Source: Thermococcus sp. JdF3
GTDB lineage: Archaea > Methanobacteriota_B > Thermococci > Thermococcales > Thermococcaceae
NCBI RefSeq assembly: GCF_012027495.1
Contig: NZ_SNUK01000003.1
Span: 310,001-374,000 of the forward strand
Direction of reading: 5' to 3'
Length of the DNA stretch: 64,000 bases
Shown: one piece after another, positions 3,053 to 38,051 of the stretch
How the letters are laid out: every line of letters starts with the position of its first letter
How positions within the stretch are numbered: position 1 is the first letter of the stretch
The notes under the pieces: model-generated
The model's input: the letters and a program-made list of their open reading frames with translations, nothing else
Told to the model about the DNA's origin: nothing
The model's database searches: none
Program-made: the position numbers and the translations under genes

Positions 3053-3864
3053 GCGATAACGGCATGAAGCCCTTCCAGAGCGCCCTCTGGGTGGTCTTTG
3101 AGAGCGAGTTCAGGAGATTGATCCGCTCAAGGAAGCTCAAGGTCCTATTCCTCGTTACGTTCTTTCCTGCGTTCATATACCTTCTCAGCCCAAACGCATC
3201 GGGAACCGGCATTGATGCTATGCTCAAGGCGTTTCAGGCTCTCATGCTTGATCTGGTCCCCAACTACTGGCTGGGTATAATCGGCCAGCTCATCGCGATA
3301 ATCCTCATGAGCGACCTCCTCGCGGGTGAGATAGACCGGGGAACAATAAGGGTACTGCTTGCGAGGCCGGTGAGGCTCAGCGAGGTTGTAGCCGCGAAGT
3401 TTTTCGCTGGACTCGGCGCCCTTGCGATTCTCTTTGGAGTTCCCTACACCGTTATCTGGCTCTACAACCCCCTCGTTTACGATACCGGTGCGAACGGACT
3501 CTGGAAAGGCCTGCCCGACTTTCTCCTTGCCCTGGGAGCGACGCTCCTTGTTCTGGCCGCCCTCGGCGCCCTGGCGATGCTGGTTTCGGTCATCATAACG
3601 CGCCCGCTCTACGCCTCGCTGGCGACCTTTGGGATAGTCTTTCTCCTTCAGTTCCTCCTGCCCCAGATTCCCTACGTCAAAACCCCGGAGCGCTACACCC
3701 TCGGCTATCAGGCGGTGGTTCTGCTGAAGGCCGGGTTCGATAAGGTTGACCTGGGCGCCTTCATCGGGAATCCCTCCCATACGGCCGTCTTTTTTGGTGC
3801 AGTTGGGGCCATCTTCCTGGCCGTTGCCTGGGCGGTGCTCGTAGGCCGCGACTTCCCCGATTGA
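3049..3864 (+). CDS. ABC-2 type transporter permease
   Basis: A 271-residue membrane protein with about six hydrophobic segments: LFLVTFFPAFIYLL, LGIIGQLIAIILM, LAILFGVPYTVIWL, LLVLAALGALAMLV, ATFGIVFLLQFLL and a final VFFGAVGAIFLAVAWAVLV. The conserved LLAGEIDRGTIRVLLARPV segment is the cytoplasmic coupling stretch of ABC-2 permeases. I chose ATG 3049, which overlaps the ATPase stop by four bases; an in-frame ATG nine bases upstream is possible. With the preceding ATPase it forms a complete two-gene exporter. Confidence 0.85.
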   Translation: MSDNGMKPFQSALWVVFESEFRRLIRSRKLKVLFLVTFFPAFIYLLSPNASGTGIDAMLKAFQALMLDLVPNYWLGIIGQLIAIILMSDLLAGEIDRGTIRVLLARPVRLSEVVAAKFFAGLGALAILFGVPYTVIWLYNPLVYDTGANGLWKGLPDFLLALGATLLVLAALGALAMLVSVIITRPLYASLATFGIVFLLQFLLPQIPYVKTPERYTLGYQAVVLLKAGFDKVDLGAFIGNPSHTAVFFGAVGAIFLAVAWAVLVGRDFPD

Positions 3865-36026: not shown

Positions 36027-37241
36027 ATGGAGACGGTCCCCCTGATTCTGGGTCTTTTAGCGGGAGTACTGACCTCTTACACAGATATTAAGACGGGGTT
36101 CATCTTCGACAACCACGCTTTTCCAACCCTCACTCTCATTGGACGCCTCCTCGGGTGGGAGGAAGAGGAGGAAGAGGAGAGCGAGCTTCCCACCTGGCTT
36201 GGCAGGATCGTGATTCCGGCCGCCGAAGTCGGCGTCCTGTACTATCTGTACCGGGGAATACAGGCCCATGATGGCCTGCTGGCCGCCTCCGGACTCATCG
36301 GACTGATACTGGGCTTTATCCTCGGTCTCCTGCTCTACTACATCGGGGCCTGGGCCAGCGGTGATGTGGTTGTTCTGGCGGCGTTCTCCGCCCTTCTGCC
36401 CCTCGCCCCAGCCGCCGCGGATGTCGTCCCCCCCTACGGAACGACGTACCCCCTGTACCCCCTGGCAGTGCTTTTCAACAGCATCCTGGCGGTGTTTCCC
36501 TTCATCTTCGTATACTCCCTGGCCGTCCTCGTGCTCAGGAAGAGGTTTCACGCCCTGAGGGAGGTCTTCGTGGGAGGACTGCGCACCACCGTTGAGTTCA
36601 CCCTGTGGATAGTTGCCGTCATAACCGTTCAGGCAATCATGGGAAGCGCCGGAATCTCAAGTCCCATAACCGGAATCCTCGTGGCGCTCGTCCTGCTGCC
36701 CGTCTTTATGAGGCTCCATCACCTCGGCAACGCCGCCGGAATTCTGTCCCTCGGATACCTCATGTACCTGGACCCAACGGTCGCACTCTTAACCTCCGGG
36801 AGGGTTTTTGTCCTCATCTACCTCCTAAAGGTGCTCCTCTCCACCGTCAGGTTCATGCGTGTGGAGGTGCTGATGGAAGAGGTCCCCGTGGAGGAGCTGA
36901 ACGAGTGGGACATACTCGGCGAGGTCATCCACGAGATTAACGGTGAGGTAATGCGGGACAGGGAGGACGGTCTTGAACGCATTAAGCGCACCCTAGTCTC
37001 ATGGGATCCGGGATCGCTGAAGCCCAGGCGGGGACGGATCATAGCCTCCCCCACAGCGGAGGGACTCAGAAAAGAGCAGATAGAAGAGCTCAAGCGCCTC
37101 GTGGAGGAGGGAAGGCTTGAAAACTCCTTCCTCAGGAAAAAATCAATGCCCTTCGCCCCAGCGCTTTTCATAGGGTTCCTGATGGCGTACTTCTGGGGGG
37201 ACATCTTCTGGTGGCTCGTTCTGAGGGTCGCCGGGCTCTGA
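36027..37241 (+). CDS. Prepilin/preflagellin peptidase (A24 family)
   Basis: A 404-residue polytopic aspartic protease. Residues about 17-23 (YTDIKTG) carry the first catalytic Asp and GAWASGDVVVLAAFSALLP (about residue 108) the second (GD). About eight hydrophobic segments follow. It would cleave class III signal peptides, most simply that of the pilin-like protein encoded nine bases upstream, and methylate or process filament proteins at the membrane. It is longer than FlaK/EppA peptidases because of an extra region (about 260-370). ATG 36027 follows GAGGTGAAATC. Confidence 0.8.
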   Translation: METVPLILGLLAGVLTSYTDIKTGFIFDNHAFPTLTLIGRLLGWEEEEEEESELPTWLGRIVIPAAEVGVLYYLYRGIQAHDGLLAASGLIGLILGFILGLLLYYIGAWASGDVVVLAAFSALLPLAPAAADVVPPYGTTYPLYPLAVLFNSILAVFPFIFVYSLAVLVLRKRFHALREVFVGGLRTTVEFTLWIVAVITVQAIMGSAGISSPITGILVALVLLPVFMRLHHLGNAAGILSLGYLMYLDPTVALLTSGRVFVLIYLLKVLLSTVRFMRVEVLMEEVPVEELNEWDILGEVIHEINGEVMRDREDGLERIKRTLVSWDPGSLKPRRGRIIASPTAEGLRKEQIEELKRLVEEGRLENSFLRKKSMPFAPALFIGFLMAYFWGDIFWWLVLRVAGL

Positions 37242-37253
37242 ACCAGGGTTAGA

Positions 37254-37261
37254 CTTTTAAG
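37254..37261 (+). promoter_or_regulatory. TATA box for the H/ACA RNA
   Basis: CTTTTAAG at 37254-37261 predicts a start at about 37283, which is the 5' edge of the lower stem of the H/ACA-like hairpin. The 15 bases before it end the prepilin peptidase gene, so the RNA has its own promoter. Confidence 0.6.
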
Positions 37262-37280: not shown

Positions 37281-37346
37281 CCGCCGGCCCGGCGTCCGCC
37301 CACCCCGCGGAGGAGTGAGGCGGGGATTCCGGCCGGGCCGACAGGG
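37281..37346 (+). ncRNA. H/ACA guide RNA, predicted 16S rRNA pseudouridylation guide
   Basis: One hairpin shows every hallmark of an archaeal H/ACA RNA. The lower stem is 9 bp (37285-37293 with 37332-37340), followed at once by ACA (37341-37343). The pocket strands are GTCCGCCCA and ATTCCG. The upper stem is CCCCGC/GCGGGG (37303-37308 with 37320-37325), capped by GGAGGAGTGAG. There GA and TGA can form the tandem G-A pairs of a K-loop for L7Ae. The pocket top is 14-15 bases from ACA, as required. TCCGCC and TTCC in the pocket pair with GGCGG(G) and GGAA of the conserved 16S segment targeted by probe Arch915 (GGAAUUGGCGG), leaving the two U residues unpaired. Confidence 0.75.
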
Positions 37347-37417
37347 GAATGAGGAGCTTTTGCTTTGCTGAGGGCGCCCGCGTGGGCGGCGTGATGAGCA
37401 CGCCCTTCACCGACCCC
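37344..37417 (+). ncRNA. Possible C/D box guide RNA
   Basis: Directly after the H/ACA element the order of boxes fits a C/D RNA: C ATGAGGA (37349-37355), 12 bases, D' CTGA (37368-37371), a 19-base self-pairing spacer, C' GTGATGA (37391-37397), 12 bases, D CCGA (37410-37413). GGGG (37344-37347) and CCCC (37414-37417) would close the terminal stem. Both guide lengths (12) are standard. However C and D each carry one mismatch to consensus, and the element runs into the 3' end of the convergent HAD gene. It is a moderate candidate only. Guide targets were not identified. Confidence 0.35.
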
Positions 37418-38051
37418 GCTCAGCGCCGTCCTCCACCAGCCCCGCTATTATCTCCATCACCTCGTGGAGGCTCTCAACGTTGTGGTCGCCTTCCACCCCC
37501 TCGTGAGGGTTTATCGCTATGCTGACGTCGGCTTCTTTAAACATGCTCAGGTCGTTGTATCCATCACCGACCGCTATTGTTACCTCAGGTTCAAGCTCCG
37601 CCTTCAGCTCCCGGAGTATGGTCCCCTTGCTCCTGAAGTCGACAAGGGGATTGACCTTCCCGGTAACGACGCCGTTTTCGTCAAATACCAGTTCGTTGGC
37701 GAAGACGTAGTCAACCCCGAGCTCCCTCGCTATCCTTCCGGCGAGGCACATGAGACCGCTGCTGAGTATCGCTATCCTGAAGTCGTTCTCCCGGAGAAAC
37801 CCGATGAGCTCCTCAGCTCCATCCATGTACTCAACCGAGTTCGCCCATTCCATGATCTCCTCCCTCGTGTGACCTCTCCAGAGGGAGGCGTCGAGTTCGG
37901 CCCACTTCACGTAGTCTATTTTTCCCGCAAAGAAGAGCTCGGCGTATTCCTTCCCCTTCTCCCAGGTTCCAAAGCGCTTGTGAAGTTCAACCCAGCCGGA
38001 GATGGATTTGACCAGAGTTCCCTCAAGGTCAAAGGCTATGAGCTTAACCAT
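37407..38051 (-). CDS. HAD-family phosphatase, phosphoserine phosphatase-like
   Basis: A 214-residue haloacid dehalogenase-fold hydrolase. Motif I is FDLEGTLV (Asp8 nucleophile), motif II is ILSSG (about 94-98), and motif III/IV is AVGDGYNDLSMF. The DLEGT form of motif I and VFANELVFDENGVVTGKVNP are typical of archaeal SerB-like enzymes, which dephosphorylate phosphoserine, though other small phosphates are possible. ATG 38051 follows GGTGGTACG (minus strand). The 3' end overlaps the candidate C/D RNA on the other strand. Confidence 0.82.
   Translation of the reverse strand: MVKLIAFDLEGTLVKSISGWVELHKRFGTWEKGKEYAELFFAGKIDYVKWAELDASLWRGHTREEIMEWANSVEYMDGAEELIGFLRENDFRIAILSSGLMCLAGRIARELGVDYVFANELVFDENGVVTGKVNPLVDFRSKGTILRELKAELEPEVTIAVGDGYNDLSMFKEADVSIAINPHEGVEGDHNVESLHEVMEIIAGLVEDGAERGR

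Follow-up and report, generated by a model that had tools for sequence, protein, structure and literature searches.

The Rfam family RF00065 (snoR9) corresponds to the Pyrococcus abyssi H/ACA sRNA Pab21, which opens a transcript that continues on its 3′ side as the C/D sRNA snoR9, an arrangement that agrees with the P. abyssi transcriptome (PMC4652768). This transcript is reported to be ~127 nt long, with an H/ACA part of 59 nt; the label “C/D snoRNA snoR9” conceals an H/ACA guide. The Pab21 sRNP has been reconstituted in vitro with L7Ae, aCBF5, aNOP10, and aGAR1; its activity was modest, reaching less than 50% of the substrate in 80 min, and the base 3′ to the target uridine is itself a U (PMC3726423). 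In archaeal H/ACA sRNAs, 14–15 nt separate the ACA from the upper (GA) stem (PMC4652768). HgcE (RF00060), HgcF (RF00058), HgcG (RF00064), Pab19, Pab91, and Pab160 share the H/ACA architecture and machinery with the locus described here and differ from it in their pocket sequences.

We analyzed a 64,000-nt stretch of the Thermococcus sp. JdF3 genome (the window), in which an intergenic element can be identified with high confidence as the Pab21-sR9 ortholog of Thermococcus, a composite guide RNA comprising a 5′ H/ACA and a 3′ C/D guide module (Table 1). Its modules, stems, K-loop, ACA, guide cores, C/D boxes, and guides occur as in the P. abyssi RNA, from which it differs by one G-U pair in the 5′ guide duplex and by a D′-C′ spacer enlarged to a 19-nt hairpin. 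A standard Rfam scan at gathering thresholds returned no match in the window. A permissive Rfam scan of the locus did recover RF00065 (79.2 bits, E 7e-19, 37285–37371), though the match spans only model positions 1–87 and stays below the gathering score of 90. We attribute this low score to the altered 3′ half and the D′-C′ spacer insert; G024, a close relative without the insert, scores 107.1. The standard scan thus overlooks this copy owing to a lineage-specific insert. Across the genus, RF00065 was found in 52 of 61 genomes (above the gathering score in 45), and relatives passing the threshold carry the H/ACA part, the D′ and D guides, and the C/D boxes in the same order. The structure, conservation, and family identity of the composite RNA are established by this analysis. 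The initial annotation had described an unannotated H/ACA guide: its assignment to the H/ACA class holds, while its newness does not, since the RNA is already known as Pab21, and as the ortholog of a described RNA it is of low novelty.

Table 1. Elements of the composite guide RNA locus (window coordinates).
Feature	Position	Strand	Basis or remark
TATA-like promoter element, TTTTAA within GACTTTTAAGG	37252–37260	+	~27 nt 5′ of lower stem
H/ACA lower stem P1, 5′ strand CGGCCCGGC	37285–37293	+	partner 37332–37340
5′ pocket strand; guide core TCCGCC 37295–37300	37294–37302	+	predicted to pair with 16S GGCGGG, one G-U
H/ACA upper stem P2, 5′ strand CCCCGC	37303–37308	+	partner 37320–37325
K-loop GGAGGAGTGAG, 11 nt, predicted L7Ae site	37309–37319	+	GA and TGA unchanged across the 37 homologs
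H/ACA upper stem P2, 3′ strand GCGGGG	37320–37325	+	covariation
3′ pocket strand; guide core TTCC 37327–37330	37326–37331	+	predicted to pair with 16S GGAA immediately 5′ of U920
H/ACA lower stem P1, 3′ strand GCCGGGCCG	37332–37340	+	covariation
ACA box, directly 3′ of lower stem	37341–37343	+	ACA in 36/37 homologs
C/D sR9 terminal stem, 5′ strand GGGG	37344–37347	+	complementary to CCCC 37414–37417
C box ATGAGGA	37349–37355	+	aligned to RF00065 C box; ATGAnGA in nearly all relatives
D′ guide GCTTTTGCTTTG	37356–37367	+	11-nt exact 23S complement AAAGCAAAAGC
D′ box CTGA	37368–37371	+	sequence
Expanded D′-C′ spacer, 19-nt hairpin GGGCGCCCGCGTGGGCGGC	37372–37390	+	usual spacer 2–5 nt
C′ box GTGATGA	37391–37397	+	sequence comparison of loci
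D guide GCACGCCCTTCA	37398–37409	+	10-nt exact 23S complement GAAGGGCGTG
D box CCGA	37410–37413	+	CTGA in 30/54, CCGA in 20/54 relatives
C/D terminal stem, 3′ strand CCCC	37414–37417	+	complementary to 37344–37347

The H/ACA hairpin occupies positions 37285–37343 of the forward strand and consists of a 9-bp lower stem, a pocket, a 6-bp upper stem, a K-loop, and the ACA. All parts previously read from the letters, namely a 9-bp lower stem followed by ACA, an open pocket, an upper stem, and an 11-base K-loop cap, are present; the end of the element had been placed at 37346 and has to be moved to ~37417, where the C/D guide terminates. From the ACA, 15 nt lead to the first Watson-Crick pair of the upper stem (37326–37340), or 14 nt when the A37302-A37326 opposition is counted as a layer, and the hairpin conforms to the published 14–15-nt spacing. 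The ten stacked layers that characterize the GA stem of archaeal H/ACA sRNAs are reached if this opposition, which is U-G in about half of the homologs, is counted; otherwise there are nine. Folding of the single sequence yields approximately the described shape plus some extra pocket pairs. The folding energy is unexceptional (z = -1.58; 13 of 200 shuffles were equally stable), and its z-score was discarded as uninformative.

A DNA search of 61 genomes produced matches in 33, all within the same genus. The comparative alignment comprised 37 distinct homologs. Standard pairs occupy 97.8% of the pair cells as opposed to 90.5% after shuffling, and 39 cells carry changes on both sides compared with 12.4 ± 2.5 in shuffled alignments, none of which reached the observed covariation. 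Two-sided changes affect seven pairs in total, six of them among the nine pairs of the lower stem, and the top pair of the upper stem is swapped from C-G to G-C in 15 of the 37 homologs. Sliding the partner strand by a single column lowers pairing to 55–57%. The GA and UGA of the K-loop are invariant, and the only deviation in the box following the lower stem is one ACG. This combination of covariation with an invariant K-loop, a conserved ACA, and conserved guide cores identifies the element as a structured RNA under selection rather than a chance inverted repeat, and supports the classification of the hairpin as an archaeal H/ACA guide.

The guide cores lead to a predicted target in 16S rRNA. 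The site AGGAATTGGCGGGGGAGCAC is encoded in the same genome (G000:C6:729–748) and is identical in this genome and the seven others tested. The pocket can pair with 16S GGAA-UU-GGCGGG through nine Watson-Crick pairs and one G-U pair (UUCC with GGAA and UCCGCC with GGCGGG), leaving U920-U921 unpaired; U920 in Escherichia coli numbering corresponds to residue 864–870 in the complete relatives read. The pairing of TCCGCC and TTCC with the segment read by probe Arch915, including the single G-U pair, had been proposed in the initial annotation, and the conservation of both guide cores supports it. The core TTCC is found in 36 of the 37 homologs, and most homologs carry the 5′ guide CCCGCC, a full Watson-Crick match to 16S rRNA. 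The variants UCCGCC, UCUGCC, UUCGCC, and CCUGCC retain the pairing via G-U, one pair is lost in two sequences with GCCGCC, and close to a guide core, two loci (L028 and L030) carry an indel or a shift. Complementarity as such was rejected as proof of a target, as 46 of 300 shuffled operons (15%) offer an equal 10/10 match when G-U pairs are allowed; a match as good as the actual 16S one arises in only 1.6% of shuffles. It is the conservation of the guides, with substitutions that nearly all keep the pairing, that supports the assignment, and 16S U920 within the Arch915 segment is a well-supported candidate for pseudouridylation and the best supported of the predicted targets. Of the two uridines originally considered, U920 and U921, the former is favored: the pocket geometry points to U920, and the U that follows the Pab21 target uridine (PMC3726423) agrees with the sequence U920-U921.

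It is conceivable, though unlikely, that the RNA is a functional Pab21 ortholog whose variant TCCGCC guide is directed, additionally or predominantly, at the 23S uridine of TCGGGG[U]AGGCGGACC. This site (L077 operon position 3319) pairs 10/10 with the guide of the window, and its computed 5′ duplex is stronger than that of the 16S site (-13.7 vs. -10.1 kcal/mol), but two G-U pairs fall into the 3′ guide duplex. With the majority guide CCCGCC the order is reversed, as the 23S site then contains a mismatch (-9.8 vs. -13.0 kcal/mol for 16S). Moreover, in the published Pab21 substrate the target uridine is followed by U (PMC3726423), whereas A occupies this position at the 23S site. As a separate observation, the same 23S uridine could be a second target for the variant guide of this clade.

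With 16S U920 as the preferred target, the following mechanism can be proposed. The K-loop would provide the L7Ae binding site, and Cbf5-Nop10-Gar1 would assemble on the stems and ACA of 37285–37343; the pocket would clamp 16S GGAA-UU-GGCGGG, and Cbf5 would isomerize U920 to pseudouridine. In the 3′ module (37344–37417), the D′ and D guides would direct the 2′-O-methylation of two 23S residues. Transcription, RNP assembly, and the modifications themselves are expected in this organism by analogy with the work on Pyrococcus. A gene of the Cbf5-type DKCLD and a Nop10 gene are present in the same genome, their PF08068 and PF04135 matches exceeding the cut-off.

The C/D guide, which the initial annotation had missed, is complete and follows directly on the ACA. 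For both its D′ and D guides, the 23S rRNA contains exact complements in each of the six rRNA operons read; complements of these lengths arise in 0.4% (D′, 11 nt) and 2.6% (D, 10 nt) of Markov shuffles. According to the box-plus-five rule, both predicted 23S methylation sites would be G. Every relative used has CTGA or CCGA as its D′ box; the search anchor that retrieved them included this box.

The short D′-C′ spacer is typical of the sR9 family, 48 of 54 distinct loci having 2–5 nt, and the window departs from it with 19 nt. A hairpin-capable spacer of 19–20 nt is shared by this genome (G000) and its close relatives G012 and G031, while the spacer measures 20 nt in a separate group (L092 and L100) and 14 nt in L141. 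The expanded spacer in this species and its two close relatives may be a new detail, as may the loss of the H/ACA half with retention of the C/D half in several related genomes. The C/D half stands alone in L084/G082, L091, L092/G025, L100/G021, and L156/G029, and the H/ACA half looks decayed in L081/G081 (also listed as L157/G081); these losses were read from assemblies, some of which are incomplete. The insert may convert the C′/D′ K-loop into a stem-extended K-turn. A scenario in which the 19–20-nt hairpin brought about this conversion in the clade of this species, a separate group underwent a comparable change, and other relatives discarded the H/ACA half is tentative and somewhat less probable than its negation. 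If true, the composite RNA would constitute a natural series on how far guide modules tolerate re-spacing and loss. Hairpins of 19–20 nt in the spacer were seen in the window and at L002, L003, L092, and L100, that is, in two Thermococcus groups.

Since the H/ACA half has been lost in several genomes that keep the C/D half, it is dispensable somewhere, and one could suppose that in the window, too, it is a degenerate remnant next to a C/D half that alone is functional. This is very unlikely, as all invariant positions, guides, the K-loop, and the ACA are intact in this genome, where the H/ACA model gives the hairpin 85.1 bits. The genomes that lack only the H/ACA half offer a natural experiment on whether 16S U920 depends on Pab21 as its only guide. 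In two of them (L092 and L100), the stop codon of the peptidase gene upstream marks the start of the C/D half, for which no promoter of its own was visible. Beyond the genus, the H/ACA model gave strong matches in nine genomes of sister genus g12 and in several of g14, and weak matches or none in g13 and g11. Secondary matches of the model are weak (roughly 17–40 bits) and have other pockets. They were considered as relocated Pab21 copies in genomes without Pab21 and rejected, since with their different pockets they look like other H/ACA guides, a comparison made by eye in which the 40-bit match in G073 was not viewed in register.

According to the gene map of the window, the RNA lies in the intergenic space between two convergent genes. 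The upstream gene ends at 37241 and encodes a product with an archaeal A24-peptidase C-terminal domain, as found by domain search; its downstream counterpart is a HAD-hydrolase gene (37407–38051). That the hairpin is instead a GC-rich intergenic inverted repeat, such as a terminator, can be practically dismissed despite its position, GC content, and ordinary folding energy, because conservation in the unpaired guide, K-loop, and ACA positions about equals that of the stems, no T run follows the hairpin, and P. abyssi transcribes this RNA (PMC4652768). The TATA box noted earlier upstream of the hairpin is present as the TATA-like TTTTAA, and TATA-like words lie 22–29 nt upstream in nearly all relatives bearing the H/ACA half. 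The de novo reading of the guide RNA in the initial annotation is confirmed, and that of its probable target is supported. At the opposite end, the last nucleotides of the guide RNA (37407–37417) are antisense to the end of the HAD-hydrolase gene, an overlap that takes in its last codon.
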